From positions 22,350,479 to 22,414,478 of the forward strand of contig OV277861.1 of NCBI GenBank assembly GCA_922989275.2: a DNA stretch of 64,000 nt, written 5' to 3'. Shown here one piece after another: positions 2,974 to 61,756 of the stretch (positions are counted from its first letter, which is position 1; every line of letters starts with the position of its first letter). The notes below the pieces were generated by a model. The model saw only the letters and a list, made by a program, of their open reading frames with translations. It did not search any database and had not been told where the DNA came from. A program made the translations under genes and the position numbers. This DNA comes from Gari tellinella (Eukaryota; Mollusca; Bivalvia; Cardiida; Psammobiidae).

Positions 2974-3338
2974 TTAAGCAATAGCCTGTTTCTAGTTTTG
3001 AAGACAGGTTACCACTTAAAGCAGGTTGAAAGTATAGCAAAATGCCCCTTAAGGTGCATTCTGCTGTACTCTTTGCCTGCTTTAACCTATTACCCAATAG
3101 CCTGTTTCTAGTTTTGAAGACAGGTGACCGCTTAAAGCAGGTTGAAAGTAAAGCAGAATGGGTCTTAAGTGCATTCTGCTGTACTTTCAGTCTGCTTTAA
3201 GCTACCATCAGCTAGGGTAAACAAATAATTTATAATAGCATATATCCAAGACTATATACATGTAAAGTGGAACTATTTTCTTAAGTGGTGGAATAAATTA
3301 GAAGCGTAAAAAGGCATATTTATGGAGTACTGGGTTAA
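2974..3338. repeat. two copies of palindromic MITE family A, one inserted next to the other
   Basis: Family A is bounded by TTAACCCATTACCC and its complement around a palindrome of the type AAGCAGGTTGAAAGTAAAGC. Here a partial copy (2974-3081) is broken at an internal TTAA by a second, nearly full copy (3082-3338). The latter ends 7 bp from the donor site of exon 15. Confidence 0.75.
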
Positions 3339-3345
3339 GACCTAC

Positions 3346-3582
3346 CATCTGCTTGTTGGTGAAAAGGTCTGGATCTGTTGTATGTACCACGGCCTTGTAC
3401 AGCAGGTCTATCATTTGAATGTCTCGGTGGTCCATAGTCATCCAAACTGAGGCCTCGTGCACCAGGTCTTGTGTCTGTGGTACGTCGCGAGGGTCCATAG
3501 TTGTCCATACTGCGCCTCTGCCTCTGGTCTCTCCTAAACGCTGTTGGTTGATGTGGCAGTTGGTTTGACTGATGTACTTGGT
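3346..3582 (-). CDS. exon 15: basic RG-containing tail
   Basis: Acceptor CTTATCTAG, donor GTAGGT; entered with two bases of a split codon and left in phase 1. The frame that continues exon 14 reads a low-complexity segment with repeated DNYGP / DDYGP motifs and many Arg, Gln and Ser (RRDQRQRRSMDNYGPSRR, GRGTYNRSRP). No folded domain is seen. A different frame of the same stretch is also open (MDPRDVPQ...) but is out of phase with exon 14 and is rejected. The next exon is not visible in the window. Confidence 0.75.
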
Positions 3583-6500
3583 CTAGATAAGACGGAGTAA
3601 AGTGAACAAATCCAACATTTTCTCGCTCATTTCAGCACCAAACCCTATAGTGACACCAAAGGGTTTAGTTAAAAAATAAAGATTTTAATTTTTGAAATAC
3701 TCGTCTCGAAGAGACAATTCCAATGAGAGTAACACCATAGGGTTTAATGCAAAAATAGAGATTTTAATTTTTTGAAATACTCACTTATCTGTGGCTGTTG
3801 TACTAGTGGCTGAGTATGTAGATTTTGTAGCATTCGTGGTATATTTAACCCCTGGTTTCGTTGACTCCTTTCCCAAGTCTGGAATTCTCTTTTGAATTTA
3901 GAGAATGTTTTGTCATCATACACAATAAAGGTAATGTTCTGCAATCAAAATTAATTAAAACATAAAAAATGTATTTACATTGAATACTAGTATCTAACTC
4001 TTTCACTGTCAAATTAATTGTGAGATTTTTACCCCTTCACCTTGCTTCAATATTGTCTGCAATATCATTTCAAAGTTAACCCCTTACTTGATAGCCTATT
4101 TCTAGTACTTATGCTAGGTGACTACTTAAAGCAGGTTGAAAGTAAAGCAGAATGCGCCTTAGGGCGCATTCTGCTTTGCTTTCAGCCTGCTTTAAGCTAT
4201 CATGTGCTATAATATAGAAAATATTCCCTATAATACATATTCATTATTGATTGAATTGGAACTATTTTCTTCAGCAGATGAATAAATCATTTCCGCTAAA
4301 AGGCGCTTCTATTGGGGGAAAGGGTTAAGGCAGAATGACTGACAACATTTCAGAAAGAATGTCAAACAGTTTTGACCCTGATCAGACGCTGTGTTATACT
4401 GCTTCTCATTGGGACCCAAACTGTGTGCAAACATGCTTTTTGGTGTCATGGAGAGTGAAAGGTTAACAAGAGGACCATTGACGGCCTTGAATTGCTCACC
4501 TGGTAGCCAATAGTAACGCTCATTGTTATATCAAATTGTGCAAAATTGGTTTCAGAAGAGAATAATTGTATGATTTCCTTAACCCTTTCCTCCCTGAAAA
4601 CTAAAATGGACAATTCTAATTTTCAATTAAGTCTAGTCCATTTTTGACCTTTTAGGGTTGATTTTTACAATATATGTCAAAATGACAAACAGTGTAGACC
4701 TCTGATCAGGGTCTACATTGTTTGCATAGGACAAGTGTACTACTCACATGTCGGTTTGTAAATGATGCATATATGCATGACTAGGGTTCAAAGAGTTAAG
4801 CCATACAAGGTAAACCTTCCCAACCCACTGGAAGGCATGGTTTCAACCTATTACTACATTGATATGCATTTTAACGCATGAATTTGTTCTTCACTGAAAA
4901 AGGTTGTTCCAATTCATCCATTCATGAATATGTATCATAACAAATAACTTCTATATCCTAGAAGATGATAACTCAAAGCAGGTTGAAAGTAAAGTAGAAT
5001 GCAACTTAAGGCACATTTTGCTTCACTTTCAACTTGCTTTAAGTGGTCATCTGTCTTCAAAATTAAAACAGGCTAATGGAGTAAAGGGTTAAGCTGGGAA
5101 AATCATATTAAAAATTCCATTCAAGGTCATACATGGACCTTTTGTGTAAAACTGTTTTCAAATCAGACCAGTGGTTTCAGACAACAAGACTTTTTTCACT
5201 ATAGCCATCAAAGGTAAACTTGTCCCACACACTGGCGGCCATGTTTTGGAAGATCTGGTAGATGTTTATCAATGGTTAATTTGTGTAAAGTTGTTTTTAG
5301 TATAAATAAGCATTTTCTGACATGCAGCTATTTCAAGTTTTCAATATGAAACTGACCCTGTAATTTCCAAGAAGAAGAAACTGTTAATAACTTGTGACGG
5401 AAAATGATAAGGGAGACCAGTCACCACTTCATACCAAGTGAGCTGAATATACAGTGCTCCCTCTTTACAACGACACCCACTGGGAGACACAGATGCCAAG
5501 ATGGTGTGTGTTGTTTGGAAGGAGTAGTAACAAGGAGGGAAAATTAAGACCTTGCTTAGATTTGCAAACAGCTTGGATCCAGATCAGACGCCGCCTAACG
5601 CGGCGTCTGATCAGGATTCATAATGTTTGTCAAACATCATTATATCTATTGTATCAAAATGTCCACTTATATGTAACTTTGAGAAATAAAACAGAAGACA
5701 ATATTAAACCAAGTTCGAGATATCGAAGTTCAACTGTACTGCTATGATTATGACTCTTAACCCCGTTACTCCAATGATAAACCTTTTTTACCAATTTGAT
5801 TCCTAGGTTTTATTTTTTTATTTACAAAAAAATTCTGTATCATAGCAGATGGTAGCTAAAAGCAGGCTGTAGGTAAAGCAGCATGCACATAGAGGCGCAT
5901 TTTGCTTCACTTTCAACCTGCTTTGAGCAGCTAGCCACTAGAAACAAGCTATAGGGTATGGGTTAATATTTCAAAATGAGCATGACTCCTATGACTTTCC
6001 TATAATTATGATTCCTATGAAGATTAATTTCCTATGAAAAAATTGTAAAAAGATGAGATGTTTTTTGCTTGTCGTATTTTAATTGACATATATACATGTA
6101 TAAGCAAGAGAAGAAGATGTCGAAGAAGAAAGAAGAGACAATAAAGGAATAAACATTTGTCTAGCAGCAAATAACTAGTTCGGGGGTGAAGGTGGGTGGG
6201 ATGACATATGAACAATAGTTCCACAGAAAACTAGGAGAAAAAGAAAGACTTTCAGATCAATCTAGTGTAGTTCAGATTATTACATCTCGCTTTGAGTTAC
6301 AATATTAATTTTCAATAGACCAAAATGAAACATTTTGCATGTCTTTTACATCTTACCCACAAATACTGTCACTCTATATGATATTATTTGTGTCACTCTA
6401 TATGATATTATTTTCTCTATTCTCCTTTCTTTTTTGTAATAATACATGTATAAACAATGTGATATAGTAGATGTCGACGTCGTTTCCCGTGTGCCTCGGG

Positions 6501-9500
6501 GTGACATTCTGTTTCTCGGGTTGACAATTTGAATGTCACGCAAACTGCCATCTAATATTTATATATTGTTGTTCATATATGCATAAATAAAATTCAGTTG
6601 TCCAGTTCAATGACCATCAATACCTCAGACAGCACTGCTCTACTGGGAGACAGAACTCATGCACATACCCGAGTGAGAATTCAGAAATCAACACACAAGT
6701 GACTCCGATTGAAGTCCAGATGGTGGTTTCGCCAGTTTTCAAACCACTGACAACCCAGAAATGCCATCGAGCTGAATGCACATACATGACAGACCATGTA
6801 AATACTAACAGTTAACCCAATACCCCAGAGCCTATTTCTAGTAGTGAAGATAGTTGACCACTTAAAGCAGGTTGAAAGTAAAGCAGAATGCGCCTCAAGG
6901 CGCATTCTGCTTTACTTTCAGCCTGCTTTAAGCTACTATCTTCTAGAAAATATATTATATTTTTACAATTATGAATATATATCACAAGATATATTTTATT
7001 AAAATATATCTTATGATAAATATTCATAATTGTAAAAATTGGAACTATTTTCTACAGTGGAGGAATCAATTATAGGCTTAAAAAGGCGTATTTATAAGGT
7101 AATGGGTTAAAGTAAACAAACCAAGAAAAATCAGAAAGTACTTGACATGGCAACAAAGATGAGAAAGTCTCACATCGATAAACCCAGAGCTCCAGATAAG
7201 GGAGGAATTTTTATTTCTGTATAAAACACCTCTGGTGTCACTACTCATTAGAATCGTCTCTTTGAGACGATTCTAATGAGTAGTAACACCATAGGATTTG
7301 GTGATAAAACGAGTGAAAAAATACCGGGTTTGTTCAGTTTACTTGCTCTTACCTGGAGTTCTGATTTAAACACTTACCACATCTGGTGATAATATTCGCC
7401 TTAGTGCTTGAAGCTGGAATTGTTGCACACAAATAATCAATCACCCATTGAAAATTAAGATGTATTTGTGAAACACTGTACCCCCTGATGTGACAATGAT
7501 GGTCTTGTCCATATACATGTGCATACCAAATATAAATGCAATATCTCAAGGGACATAGGAGTTATTAGTATTTTCAAAACATAATTACAGATTTGGAAAC
7601 ACAAATGCGGTCCCTAAGTTCAAGGTCACTGGGGTCAAACTTTTTGCATGCATAAGAACTTAAAGGCAGATTTCAAAACCAAAACCAATTGGCTAAGGTC
7701 AAGGTCACATGGGTCCAAAATGTCACATGGTCAGAAAGGTTTTGCCCCAAGGCATGTGTGGTGCAAGTATAAAAGATGTAGGTGAAAGGGCAAAGAAATT
7801 GTGAACACTTTCTTGAAACTGCTAACACAAACGGCAATGCCAACGACAGGGTGACAACATAAGCTCTCCTGGACACAGTCCGGCAAGCTAAAAACTATAA
7901 GACCCAACTAAGTCGTGATGGGGAATAAAAAAGAGAAAAAAATAAAATGATCAAACGTTTAACGAGGGTCACCATGGCCCTAAACCGCTCACCTGGTACA
8001 CCATGTAAAACTTGACCTATAGAGACCTAGATTATGACTGGACATGACCCACAATCAACCTCTAGAGTGTTTACAAGATATTTCTGTGATTTGACCTAGA
8101 TTTTTTTACCAGCCACAAGCCACATTTGATTTTGATCTAGATTTGATGTAGGCAAACATTCTGACAATATTTCATTCATATCTAATGAGATTTGTAGCCT
8201 CTAGAGTGTTAACACTGTTTCTCTTTTATTTGACCCAGTGACCTAGTTTTTGACCGGACATGACCCATTTTCAAACTTGGCCTAGATATCAATGAGGTTA
8301 ACATTCTGACAAAGTTACATTAAAATCCAATGAGATTTGTAGCCTCTAGAGTGTTAACAAGCTTTTTTTTATTTGACCTAGTAACCTAGTTTTTGACGGG
8401 ACATGACCCACATTCAAACTTGACCTAGATAGCAATGAGGCAAACATTTTGACAAATTTCATTACAATCCAATGAGATTTGTAGCCTCTAGAGTGTTAAC
8501 AAGGGTTTTCTATGATTTGACCTAGTGACCTAGTTTTTGACCCGACATGACCCACATTCGAACTTGACCTAGATTTCATCCAGATCAAGTTTCATGAAGA
8601 TCAGATGAAATTTGTAGCCGCCTGAGTGTGAACGGACGGACAACCATCCTTAGCTCACCTTGGCACTTTGTACCTGGTGAGCTAAAAAGTCATATTTATC
8701 AAACAGTTGGGATGGTTTTCAAGTACTTTTCAAGCACATTTGTACTTTTCCAGTCACAGTATAGAGAGGTGGTTGGAATAGAGACATGGTGGTAATAGAG
8801 AGGTGATCGTACCAGAGAGGTTCTACTGTATTTACTTACAGGGTTATTCATGATGCCTGGTGACAGAAAGTCATGTGTGGCTTGTAACATTGCTTTGGCA
8901 ACTTTAGATGCCCTGTAGTCATACATACGGCCTACACCTAACGGAGGGATGGCCACACTTCTATATTCCTCATTGCCACATAGTTGTAATACCTGTGTCA
9001 AGGTGTGTTGGACAATCTGTGAAAATCAAACAATTATTTTTGTTTAACCTATTAACCCATAAATACACCTTTTTACGTCTAAAATTTATTCTTCCACAGA
9101 AGAAAATAGTTCCATTTTTATGCAGTCATGAATATGTACCATAAGAAATATTTTCTGTATAATAGTAGATGGTAGCTTAAAGCAATCTGAAAAAAAGCAG
9201 AAGGGGGATTCTGCTTTACCTTCAATATGCTTTAAGTGACTTCAAAACTGGAAACAGGTTATGGGGTAATGGGGTTAACCCTTCTTTCACTGAATATTCA
9301 TACAGTGGAGAAAACGTTATTCTTTCCCAATAAACTTGTTTATGCTAAAACTATTTTTTCCATTGTTTTCTACGTTTTAGTGCTTTGCGTTTGCGTATGT
9401 TTGCGTTTAAGGGGGTAGGTGCACCTTGGTAAAGTAAATACCAAATTCTTCAAACTTTGCATACTGATAGTAAAATTAGTTTCTATGACAAAACTGGTGA

Positions 9501-12500
9501 AAAAAGTGGGGGTACCGGACCTTTCTTTTTCACAATTTGAGATTTTTCAAGGCTACCCCCCTAAAATTGAAGCTTCATAAAAACTCCTACTTTTTTGTAC
9601 AACGGTTTTTCAATCTTTATTTAAACAATCTATTTGTACCAAAAGTATCCTAATTTATATTACCATAGTAAGAATAAACCCTGAAAATAATGTTTTTTCA
9701 AGATCCAAAATAAAAATATTTGATTTCACCAGAAAGGAGTAAAATTTACCCCACCCACTTTTTTATAATGGGAGAATAAGGCACTGTGAAAATTGCCCTA
9801 CAAATTGTAGCAAACTAAATACCAAATTTTTTATTTGTTGTTTTTAGCCTTGCAAACAAAAAGTTTTAGTGAAATAGCAAATAAAAACACAGGGTCCTGT
9901 ATCTTTTAAAAAAGATATAGATCATTTTATCTAAAAAATCCATTTTTTCTCATTTTTTCAATTTTTTGTGTACTTTTACCAAAAATATTTTTTTTCCAAA
10001 AAATTTCATTTTATCTATTGAGTTATCTATAATTTATACTAAAACTGTACTACCATGAAAATTTCATGCTTATATTCTGAGAAATTGAAATGAAATCGGA
10101 TGTAACAAAATACAACCTACCTATGAAAACAGTGTATGCTGTTAACTACGAATAGGACATAAAACTTAAAAAGTCCCTTCCGGAACGAAAATCCAATTTT
10201 TTTCCGGGAAAATAGTGTTTTATTACTGTGTGCATTCACCAAAAATGAGTTCTTACCATTTTTTTGAAAACGAGTTCGTAAATTTTTTCGGAAATTTCAT
10301 AATGCTCAAAAAGACAGGCCGACATCCTTAAATGGGAAAGAATAACGTTTTCTCCACTGTATGTAGAACTCTGGCCACTATGAACATCGGGACTTATCTA
10401 CTTCATTGGCTAAAAATTAAGTTTATTAACAATTCCCAGGGAAAACAGAAGTTGGGAACTGTCCTAGTAAGGAATTGTTCATACAGGGTCTGCTCCGTTT
10501 GTCGTGGCAGTATATAGTTAAAGTAAACCCTTAATATTTCAAACTTGATTAGACTTAATTGAAAACTTGAATTGTCCATTTGAAGTTTCAGGGGCGAGTA
10601 AGTTAAACAATATGATTTCTTATTTGTGTAATAGTTATGAGTTGGTAGAAATTATGAGAAGACATTTGCACTCTTTTTAATCAGAACAAACAGAGCACCA
10701 GATAAGGGTAGTTTTTCAAATACTAAAATCTTTATTTTTGAATATCACCCTATGGTGTCAATACTCATTAGAATCGTCTCTTCGAGACGATTCTAATGAG
10801 TAGTAACATAATAGGATTTGGTTCTAAAAAGAGTGAGAAAATGTTGGATTTGTTGAAATAACTACCTCTTATCTGGAGCCCTGACAAATAACTAAAGGCG
10901 AGGTTTACCTGTGAACAGTCATCAACAGATTTCTGCAGCGTGACGTGGAGAACCTTTTTACACTGAAGTGTTCCACATGCTTTAGTGTCTATTATTCCTC
11001 CTCCCTTCATTTGCAATTTCCGTTGGTACATCTGAAAACAAAGTTTTTAACACTTTGAATGCTAGTGGTGGATATGTGCAACAGTGACTATCTTTCCAAA
11101 CAGTTTTGATCCAAATGAGATACTGCGTAACGCATAAGAATTCAAACTGTTTGACACTCTGATCCTGTGTTGAAAAGTAATTTAGAAAATTCTATTCTTA
11201 GAACAATAGCAGATGAAAAAATTACCCAGCATGCAAAAAGTTACACATGACGTTATCTCCCTGTGCTATAGAGTTAACAGAAAATTGGTTATTAGACATT
11301 GCAAACAGTGAAGACAATGATAAATTGTGTGACAAGACTGATTGAAAAAATCGTGGCCTGACAGGGACTTGAACCCGGGGTCTCTGGCTTACCGTGCCAG
11401 AACTCTAACCACTTGAGCTACCGAGCCACCTGGTTTAGGACTTATTAATTATGCAACTAAGTTACCTGTACACACCCAAGTAACTCCTGCTACACTTCTA
11501 TTATCCTAAGTCCACACTCTATCCATCAATCATCACAGGTAACAGTATGGTATCCATGACTGTGAAAAGTAATTCCTATGCAAAAGCTAATGTGGGTTTA
11601 CAGTTTGTTTGTTTGTTTGTTTGTTAATGTCTGTTTCTGCCATCTATTGGGTAATTGGACGCCCCAGAGAGAGAAGAGCGGATACAAAGAACCCAGGCAA
11701 GATGCCCTACTCTTATTAACGAAAACGTTCTCTGGTTCTTTTAGATGCCCAGTGTAAAGCACTGATAAAGTCTCATCCAAAGGACTTGGTCAGGCGGGGG
11801 ATCGAACTCACAACCCCCGACGTCATAAGCAGGCGCTTTACCCCTCGAATACTTCTGCTGGTGTGGGTTTACAGTAAAACCTCTATTTTACAACCACTTA
11901 ACAAAGACTAATTGATTATTTAAAAGACAGGTGACAGCTTAAATTTATAGTAAGGTGACAGTAAAACAGAAAGCTCCTAAGGGGAGCTTTCTGTTTTACT
12001 GTCACCTTGCTTTAAGCAATCACCTGTCGTAAACACCTTTGGCTCATTCACCCCTGAAACCTTTAATGGTTAGTTCCAATTAAAAATAAGTCTAGTCCAT
12101 TTTTTACTATTTAGGGTTGATTTTAACAGTATATTTCAAAATGACAAACAGTGTGGACCCTGATCAGAGGGCTCCTTAAGGAGCCCTCTGATCAGGGACT
12201 ACACTGTTTGCATGGGACCAATGTAATTTCACAGGTACACTGTTTGTAAATAATGAGTATACTCATCGCTAGGGTTGAATGTGTTAATTAATACAATTGT
12301 GTGGCCGTAAAAGAGAGGTTTTACTGTACCTAAAATATTCTTTGTAATTGGCACTATCTTACCAGATTGAACTGTTGCCCTCCAGCCCTTAATATGGCTT
12401 TAGAGACTGTCCCCTCTTCCAAGTTGCCTTTTGGTCCAATAATACTAACAAGACAGTCAGCCTAAGAGAAATAAAAACACTTTAACCCATTACTTCATAA

Positions 12501-42022: not shown

Positions 42023-45000
42023 ATTTTTTTTATGGGCATAACAACCTCAAGATAGGAGTTATCAATATTTTGCATTAGGGAGAAGCATTACCAACTTTTT
42101 GGGGGGGGGGGTCCAAAATTTACAGGGGGGGTCCATATTTCGCTATCAAAAATGGACCCGCGGGTCCATTTTTTACGGGGGTCCAAATTTGATCTGACAG
42201 GGGCATTGTGTATAACCCGGCCGCCTTTACCCCATATATAGCCTGTTTATAGTTTTGAAGACAGGTGATCTTTGAAAGCAGGTTGAAAATAAAGCAGAAT
42301 GCACCTGAGGTGCATTCTGCTTTACTTTCAGCCTGCTTTAAGCTACCATCTGCTAGGGCATAGGAAATATTTCTTATGTTGAATACCTATGATAGTATAA
42401 AATTGAAACTATTTTCTTCAAAGGCAGAATAATTTAAAAGGCATAATAAAGGGAGTATTTTGGAGGGTAATGGGTTAAAAAATCTCTGTCTAGCATTACA
42501 GTGAGTCACCTTTAATTTACTTCTAGTGACTGGCTATTTACAAAGTGTACCTGTGAAGAATACACTTGTCCTACATAAACAGCATAGACCTAGAGGTTAA
42601 GGCCAAAGGTCAATATCATGAAACTACACTGCAATCATGTTGTGTTCTTTTCAAGACATACAGACTGCAGACATGTTAATCCATTACCCCATAGCCTGTT
42701 TCTAGCTTTGAACTTAAAGCAGGTTGAAAGTAAAGCAGAATGCACCTTAAGGTGCATTCTGCTTTACTTTCAGCCTGCTTTAAGCTACAATCTGCTAGAA
42801 TATAGGAAATATATTTATAACTGTATAAATTATAAAGTATAGTGGAGGAATAAATTAAAGGCATAAAAAGGCATATTTATGGGGTAATGAGTTAAGTTGC
42901 ATGACCTTAGCTCTACTATTTTGTTCAATAACTGACCTAACTGCAAAAACTTAACCTTGATGAACGAACAGATAGACAATGTTTATTACAATATACAGTA
43001 AAACTTCTCTATCGCGACCACTAATATGTGTTAATTAACAGGTGTTTAAAGAAGGTGAACAACATCGTTAACCTTGCTTTAAGCTGTCCGCTATATTTTA
43101 AGCAGTCAATTTTCCTCAGATATTAATGCAGTGCACTTAAAATGTAGAAAATGACTGGCAGTCATTTTCTACATTTCATTGCGCTGCATTATACCTGAAG
43201 GAGTCTGGTTATAGATATGGAAAGTATTGACAGTTACTAAATCTGAATGCAGGGCAGTAAACTCTAGTTTTCAAACAGTTTCTCTTTCACCCCCAGTCCG
43301 TCTAAAGACCCCAAACCACTTTTAAAAGTAAGTTTTTCCTATTCTAGCAGATGGTAGCTTTAGGCGCATTCTGCTTTACTTTCAACCTGCTTTAAGTGGA
43401 TACCTATCTTCAAAATCAGGCTATTGGATAATGGGTTAATATCTAGAAGTAACTGTGTACTATAGCTATCTTCATTTTTGTACGAGTTGCTCCCCTTGAA
43501 AGGAAAAACATTGTAGATTTAACATTTTTTTCATTATTTTAGCTTAAATTAGCCATTTATAAGCTTTATTTGATTTAATAGGCATTAAGGAATTAAAGTA
43601 GTTTGGGTTGTTTTTTAAGTGGTTAAGGCACATACAAACTAGCTTCATAAATTTCAGTCGCAAGACACGAAAGCCAACTCCTATTATTCCGTATCAAATT
43701 CGACAAAATTACTCCCCTTTCATATAAGAACAAGAAGGGGTGTATGTTTGGGCTTTTCGTAAATAAGAAATCGATTTTTTACCAAGAAACAGACAATTTT
43801 CTTATAAAGTTTATGTAATATCCTTGCTTTTCATATGCGGTTGCTATGGTAAACATATGATTTTTCATGGTAAACAAGTGAATTTTTAAAACCGAAAGTA
43901 AACGATATACACTTCGTTCGTCTGATAAGGCGAGTTCATCTGTTTGCCAACATGAAACGATACACACTAATCACGATATCAGATTTGTTATCAGTTAAAA
44001 CGATTTGAACAGTAATAAAACAATATATATGCAGTCTAGTATGGGAACATTTTTGAAGTGATTTAAGCGGCTACACATTCAAATGTATGATAGGGTGGCA
44101 AAGCACATGCTCTCGCTCTGACTACCGCTGTGTTGAAATATCACTACGCGTTAATCGAAAGTCTGTTAGTGTTAGGCAGGTTTGGAGAGGTTTGGTGTGG
44201 TTTGCGGAGGTTTAGGGTCTTTAGACGGATCCTTTTCTCCTTCATGTATTTACCAATGTAGCAACATTTTTCTCACCAGTTTCATCAGTGATGGTTACAG
44301 AAGCGCAGGGAGCCAAACTAGAAACCTTAACTTCCTTCACGTCACATTCAGCACCACATTTCTTCTTGCTCTCAAAGTAGAGGGTGATAAAGTCCTTGTC
44401 CACCCCTATAGGAAGACTGGGGAGGAATATACCCTGCACAGTTCCGAGGCTCTCCAGGAGAACTCTCCTCCCTTGTAGATGTCTCTTATCCAGGGCACCA
44501 TGGTACCTAGCAGTATCTACTTGGATAAAGTACAGAAAAAGTTCTCCATTACAACCTCAAAAAAAGGTTAACCTCTCTATTTTGATCAATAAGAAGAAGG
44601 TTAATTGACTATACAAAAGACACATGACCGCTTAAAACAAGATGCTTTCTGTTTTAGTCACTTTGCTTTAAGAAGTCACCTGTCTGAGTTTTAACAGCCT
44701 TAAACACCTAATAATTTTTTAACACAAATTAGTGGTCTTAAAAGAGAGGTTTTACTACTAAAGCTATCATTGTCTACATTTTATTGTATTGCCTTTGTTA
44801 ACCAATTACCCCATTGCCAGTTTCTAGTTTTTGGAGAGCGCATTCAGCTTTACTTTCAACCTAATTTAAGCCATTATCTGCTAGAATTTAGAAAATATTT
44901 CTTATGATACATATTCATGATTGTAAAAATTTGAACTATTTTCTTCAGTGAAGGAATAAACATAATGCTCTAAAAGGCGCTTCTATATGGGGGAAAGGGT

Positions 45001-61337: not shown

Positions 61338-61756
61338 TTAAAAGGGCTCCAGATAAGGGGAGTACATGTATAAAATGTGTAAAATCTTTATTTCTGTATT
61401 AAACCCTATGGTGTCACTACCCATTAGAATCATCTCAGAGAGATGATTCTAATAAGTAGTAACACCATAGAATTTGGTACTGTGTGAGTGAGAAAATGCC
61501 AAATTTGTTCAGTTTACTCCCTATTTAAAATAATCTGGAGCCCTGGTTAAGTTCAGCCGCTTATCTCAAATACTGACCTGCAGAGCTCCAGATAAGGGAA
61601 AGTAAACTGAACAAATCCAACATTTTTTCGTTCATTTCAGCACCAAACCCTATGGTGTCACTACTCATATTCTAATGAGTAGTGACACCATAGGGTTTAT
61701 GCATATAAATAAAGATTTTAGTTATTGAAATACTCCCATTATCTGGAGCTCTGGAC
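61338..61756. repeat. two MITE family D copies
   Basis: 61338-61545 (GGGCTCCAGATAAGGGGAGT, hairpin GAATCATCTCAGAGAGATGA) and 61582-61756 (CAGAGCTCCAGATAAGGGAA to CCCATTATCTGGAGCTCTGG). The second is the clearest intact reference for the family. Confidence 0.8.

Follow-up and report, generated by a model that had tools for sequence, protein, structure and literature searches.

Intron 14 of a PARP14-like gene in the bivalve Gari tellinella consists from one splice site to the other of sequence of a MITE family, here called D, and is best explained by the insertion of a D element into an exon, followed by small changes at the ends of the element and by splicing of most of the insertion as an intron. 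On the basis of the sequence we consider this origin very probable. The intron is nested inside the element and not the element inside the intron, because D sequence makes up the entire intron and the left TIR of the element runs on into exon 14. A D insertion into an older intron can hardly account for such an arrangement.

The window analyzed here is a stretch of 64,000 nucleotides (OV277861.1:22,350,479-22,414,478) of the 1.6-Gb G. tellinella genome, and positions without a locus label refer to it. The exon numbers 14 and 15 were taken over from the initial annotation and correspond to exons D and E in our own series, in which the exons further upstream were recognised in part only (Table 1). 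When joined, exons A, B, C, D and E on the minus strand give one continuous translation containing a macro domain (Pfam Macro, E 3.9e-9, residues 15-116), and the top solved-structure match of this joined protein is PARP14 (E 3.2e-10). Matches to the macro domains of PARP9 and macroH2A reach residues 149-151, and exon D begins at residue 134. Exon F is located about 10.5 kb beyond exon E and outside the window, and exons D, E and F can be joined without a stop and with matching phases. A PARP catalytic domain is found on the same strand, 13 to 18 kb away and past the window start, in locus L075 (PF00644, E 1.5e-11), with its final part further on (E 3.4e-4). As an RRM of the PARP14 type lies upstream and the PARP catalytic domain downstream, the predicted host gene is PARP14-like and intron 14 is internal to it; with the catalytic domain encoded further along this strand, a full-length product can be made only if splicing continues past exon 14. 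None of 487 candidate homologues in the protein collection matched at an E value of up to 10 with our approximate and incomplete gene model as query. A genome search for a paralogue of exons D and E that could serve as an empty site gave three hits, namely the locus itself twice and one at E 0.8. Between exons A and B there is a tRNA gene match (11354-11427, minus strand, 44.1 bits), the sole Rfam tRNA in the window at gathering scores.

Table 1. Exons, intron 14, D-derived segments and candidate target duplication in and near the window (slash, exon-intron border).
Feature	Position	Strand	Remarks
Upstream RRM exon, PARP14-type	44254..44506	-	Pfam RRM_PARP14_3, E 2.1e-5; acceptor read by eye
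Exon A	12363..12461	-	macro domain
Exon B	10909..11031	-	macro domain; D copy starts 25 nt past donor
Exon C	8840..9016	-	macro domain
Exon 14 (exon D)	3785..3938	-	end of macro domain and Q-rich linker; acceptor TTTTGATTGCAG, donor AA/GTGAGT
Intron 14	3583..3784	-	phase 1, 202 bp, all D MITE sequence, left arm duplicated
Exon 15 (exon E)	3346..3582	-	237 bp; R/G/DYGP-rich linker; phase 1 at both borders; donor GTAGGT
Exon F	L074:2609-2872	gene strand	phase-1 acceptor; in frame with exons D and E
D left arm (profile positions 5-101)	3701..3796	-	carries donor; nhmmer score 78.1
Second, internal left-arm copy (D positions 20-74)	3648..3702	-	score 31.4; common to L002
D right arm (positions 117-189)	3581..3653	-	carries pyrimidine tract and acceptor CTTATCTAG; score 61.2
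Candidate target duplication, upstream copy GTACAA	3798..3803	-	immediately upstream of the initial CAG of the TIR; 6 bp, commonest length in the family
Candidate target duplication, downstream copy GTACAT	3572..3577	-	5 of 6 positions

The D identity of the intron was established with a profile of eight full-length D copies, which gives three adjoining matches between the two splice sites. In the initial annotation the intron had been described as aligning end to end with D, and the continuous coverage agrees with this, but D positions of about 20-74 occur twice as a direct repeat, so that the alignment is not a plain end-to-end one. Over the three aligned parts, including the duplicated arm, 17 of 197 sites of the copy deviate from a D consensus, and there are three indels. 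The window contains many further D pieces detectable by blastn, the best besides intron 14 being 61587-61735 (E 5e-21). The same arrangement with a duplicated left arm is present in a copy on another contig (L002), whose differences from intron 14 are single-base changes, a few indels of one base and a gap of about 18 nt. Because of this common internal arrangement the intron 14 copy either belongs to a rearranged D subfamily or shares its origin with L002. At its end, the L002 copy (L002:1493-1732) carries a perfect donor (CCAG/GTAAGG).

The border between exon 14 and intron 14 reads CAACAGCCACAGATAA/GTGAGTATTTC and exon 15 begins after TTTACTCCGTCTTATCTAG/, and the GT-AG ends, the consensus donor and the pyrimidine tract are those of a U2-type intron at the sequence level. 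The terminal repeats of D contain both the donor AA/GTGAGT and the acceptor TTATCTAG, as had been proposed before. Sampled D copies have CAGRGCTCCAGATAAG at the left end and its inverse at the right end. The left end of the intron 14 copy is CAGCCACAGATAAG, with 14 bases instead of 16, and 13 of these form the final nucleotides of exon 14 (3785-3797); the right end is CTTATCTAGACCAA, in which only GACC past the acceptor is TIR-like. From the earlier suggestion that TIR remains extend into both exons, the exon 14 side is clearly recovered (CAG..CC.CAGATAA), whereas the exon 15 side is weak (at most GACC). Reading GTACAA and GTACAT as the target duplication requires a 2-bp deletion in each TIR. 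The best repeat between the flanks matches at 12 of 15 positions and overlaps this candidate site, and as an equally good one arises by chance in 3.5 to 7% of cases, depending on the search width, the duplication is suggestive only.

An older intron might also have been invaded by D, with both splice sites later shifted into the ends of the element and the old sequence lost. D indeed lands near exon ends in this gene, with a full copy (10691-10883) in the intron following exon B and another full copy (L074:2377-2570) that starts 38 nt after the donor of exon F. Against such a history, intron 14 has no non-D sequence left, the left TIR is in the exon and outside the intron, both splice sites would have to move independently and the exon 15 sequence past the right end is coding-like, and we regard it as unlikely.

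In the origin that we favor, a D-family MITE would have landed in an internal exon of the PARP14-like gene that codes for linker sequence. A change of the left terminus from GGGGAGT to GTGAGT would have produced a strong donor and a change of the right terminus from TCTGG to TCTAG an acceptor. The spliceosome could then cut out a phase-1 intron made up of 202 nt of the element, and 13 nt of the left TIR, about five nt from the right end and the target duplication would stay in the mRNA. If both ends lost two bases, the mRNA would have gained 24 nt, or eight codons (QPQINQVH), in frame. We infer the splicing itself, the order of these steps and the precise extent of the target duplication from the sequence. 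The same donor change as in intron 14 is found in another D copy (L019, end AGATAAGTGAGTATTT).

Exons 14 and 15 are in frame when joined. The unspliced frame from exon 14 stops 13 codons past QPQI within D (QPQISEYFKKLKSLFLH, followed by the stop), and if D were kept in some or all transcripts or provided an alternative end, read-through to this TAA would yield a macro-domain protein without the PARP domain. The strong GTGAGT donor, the in-frame exon 15 as well as exon F and the PARP domain downstream on the same strand speak against this possibility, which we consider highly improbable. The RNA is predicted to form a stronger fold than shuffled sequences (z -3.37), but its splice sites are not paired with each other in this fold.

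Exon 15 had been taken for the coding tail of the gene, and this part of the initial annotation has to be revised: the exon ends in phase 1 at the donor GTAGGT after 3346 and not at the TAA at 3335-3337, it joins exon F in phase, and the PARP catalytic domain follows. The apparent stop is located at a TTAA bordering another repeat (TTAACCCAGTACTCCATAAATATGCC, 3300-3346), by eye similar to many TTAACCC-type repeats in the window. The GC content of exon 15 is 50.6% compared to 36.1% for the window, and none of 17,840 non-exon windows is as high as its coding score of 15.5 (highest 14.5). As another frame of the exon is also open and scores 19.3, this score shows coding composition and not the frame, which is set, as far as the predicted exon borders tell, by the phases on both sides. 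Two similar repeats in the exon, SMDNYGPSRR and SLDDYGPPRH, have several synonymous differences.

The maintenance of exon 15 was evaluated by a decay simulation at the rate of the copy itself (17 of 197 sites, three indels), with 75% of indels assumed to be frame-shifting. With all divergence placed after the insertion, chance left the exon open in 2.9% of trials, and with half or a quarter of the divergence placed there, in 16.6% and 41%, and the simulation thus favors a maintained coding use of exon 15, if not strongly. The D-derived donor could in principle also be used with skipping of exon 15, so that exon 14 joins exon F and the acceptor TTATCTAG stays unused. A length of 237 nt with phases 1-1 makes this possible, because the frame is then kept from exon D to exon F as well, but the coding character of exon 15, its pyrimidine tract and TAG acceptor and the phase-matched GTAGGT donor render such skipping quite improbable.

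With its TIRs, target duplications, high copy number (5,340 first-look candidates in the genome), short length and non-coding sequence, D is a MITE of a TIR DNA transposon. Among 36 copies with both ends called, from which intron 14 was left out, an exact flank repeat of 6 bp was present in 12 (three of them, L027-L029, have identical flanks and may represent one insertion), of 7 bp in 3, of 5 bp in 5 and of 4 bp in 2, and 14 had none. In mismatched flanks of different D copies a 6-bp repeat occurred at a frequency of 1.3%. As in introners, a repeated element reaches both splice sites of intron 14; the ends of the D consensus, CTCCAGATAAGGGG and CTTATCTGGAG, hold no GT donor and no TAG acceptor there, which sets D apart from introners with working splice sites in the consensus of their element. 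In a sample of ends mostly chosen by likeness to intron 14, and not including it, a GT donor of either kind was present in 5 of 64 distinct left ends and TCTAG in 3 of 63 right ends. A single transition turns the D terminal CCAGATAAG into an ideal donor (CCAG/ATAAG to CCAG/GTAAG); at the other end, CTTATCTGG is one transition away from an acceptor, as is TTATCTGG from the acceptor TTATCTAG.

Genome-wide searches with exact patterns, whose length limits leave out intron 14 with its longer middle, detected 96 D copies with the strong donor CCAGGTAAG, the left-arm continuation and the end CTTATCTNG, 17 copies with CCAGGTAAG in either orientation together with TCTAG, and 11 copies with a TGAGT-type end and TCTAG, 9 of them with GTGAGT. 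The same patterns read backwards gave no match in the genome in any of these searches. When the flanks of the 17 copies with donor and acceptor were joined as by splicing, none of the copies had 40 or more open codons on either side of the junction alike; the best one (L082) has 39 and 51 open codons in a frame that is repeat-like by eye. For the 9 copies with GTGAGT and acceptor, of which flanks of only about 150 nt were available, four are open for at least 50 codons on one side, near the fetched edge. Among 30 copies cut out of the 96, one (L061) combines a perfect donor with joined flanks that are open for 43 and 77 codons, and its right end is TCTGG and no acceptor. With none of the 17 splice-ready copies in long open frames, D is not established as an introner family by these sequences. 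The earlier designation of intron 14 as a candidate transposon-born intron (introner) is retained for the single exonic insertion, for which it is the best reading, but not for the family. Intron 14 itself seems to be an isolated case of an exonic MITE insertion that was converted into an intron. It is conceivable, if rather doubtful, that D represents a latent introner, i.e. a very common MITE with near-splice ends that makes introns by mutational lottery and not by splice sites that it carries. The exact 27-base D core was not found in viral contigs. The intron between exons C and D contains a D copy (7185-7363) whose gene-strand end CCAG/GTAAGAGC is a ready donor, and just upstream of this copy there is a small possible exon ending at GTAAGT.

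The D copies after exons B and F concern 2 of 10 listed donors and were noticed post hoc. L002 is located about 27 nt after the donor of an exon, which we take to resemble the nucleoporin NUP155. In a first sample of 129 flanks, donor-like sites (at least 8 of 9 matches) within 40 nt were found five times in the direction towards D and once in the control direction, with 0 to 0.39 sites per kb further out; at the same threshold, a second sample of 95 flanks gave one site towards D and two in the control direction. With 7 of 9 matches, the bin of 20-40 nt contained 8 and 9 sites in the two samples (3.2 and 4.7 per kb vs about 1 to 2.6), and in the second sample the control direction was raised too (7 sites). 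As a bias of D to positions just after donors was not cleanly replicated in the second sample, we do not claim it.

Intron gain in animals is difficult to observe, as recent gains have rarely been caught together with their source. For intron 14, the source family, the insertion ends and the probable splice-site changes can be read in one gene, and the many other genomic copies are a natural control. This would allow a direct test of whether point changes can make an intron out of a transposon that lacks ready splice sites. If D were a latent introner, introns could occasionally be gained by a route that escapes surveys designed to detect repeated, similar introns. The making of introns by DNA transposons was reportedly described in a Nature paper of 2016. 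A literature search for introners in molluscs returned nothing judged related, and no paper was retrieved that combines bivalves, MITEs, introns, hAT elements and splice sites.

According to a survey of introners with DNA-transposon signatures, the number of copies per genome in introner families ranges from 5 to over 2,000, and introners occur in only two animal groups, with copepods named (PMC9860276); its main text contains no occurrence of "mollus" or "bivalv". With the introners of Gozashti et al. (2022; PMC9860276), of which many families have TIRs, intron 14 shares a non-autonomous element as source and, probably, an exon insertion that becomes an intron, and with the surveyed introners in general the position of splice sites at or near the element ends. 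The Aureococcus introners described there carry both splice sites and add 12 nt to the transcript, and intron 14 would add 24 nt. Unlike the families in this survey (PMC9860276), D has one case, a consensus without GT donor and TAG acceptor, and 17 splice-ready copies outside long open frames. The introner elements of Amoebophrya (PMC7789003) are likewise reported to have inverted repeats close to the intron ends, with direct repeats where intron and exon meet; as far as described there, however, the Amoebophrya introns are mostly non-canonical and a small part of them was assigned to MITE families, whereas intron 14 is canonical and its family is identified. An ordinary MITE finally lies inside an intron, as the D copy after exon B does, whereas intron 14 lies inside the element and part of the element sequence is located in the exon.
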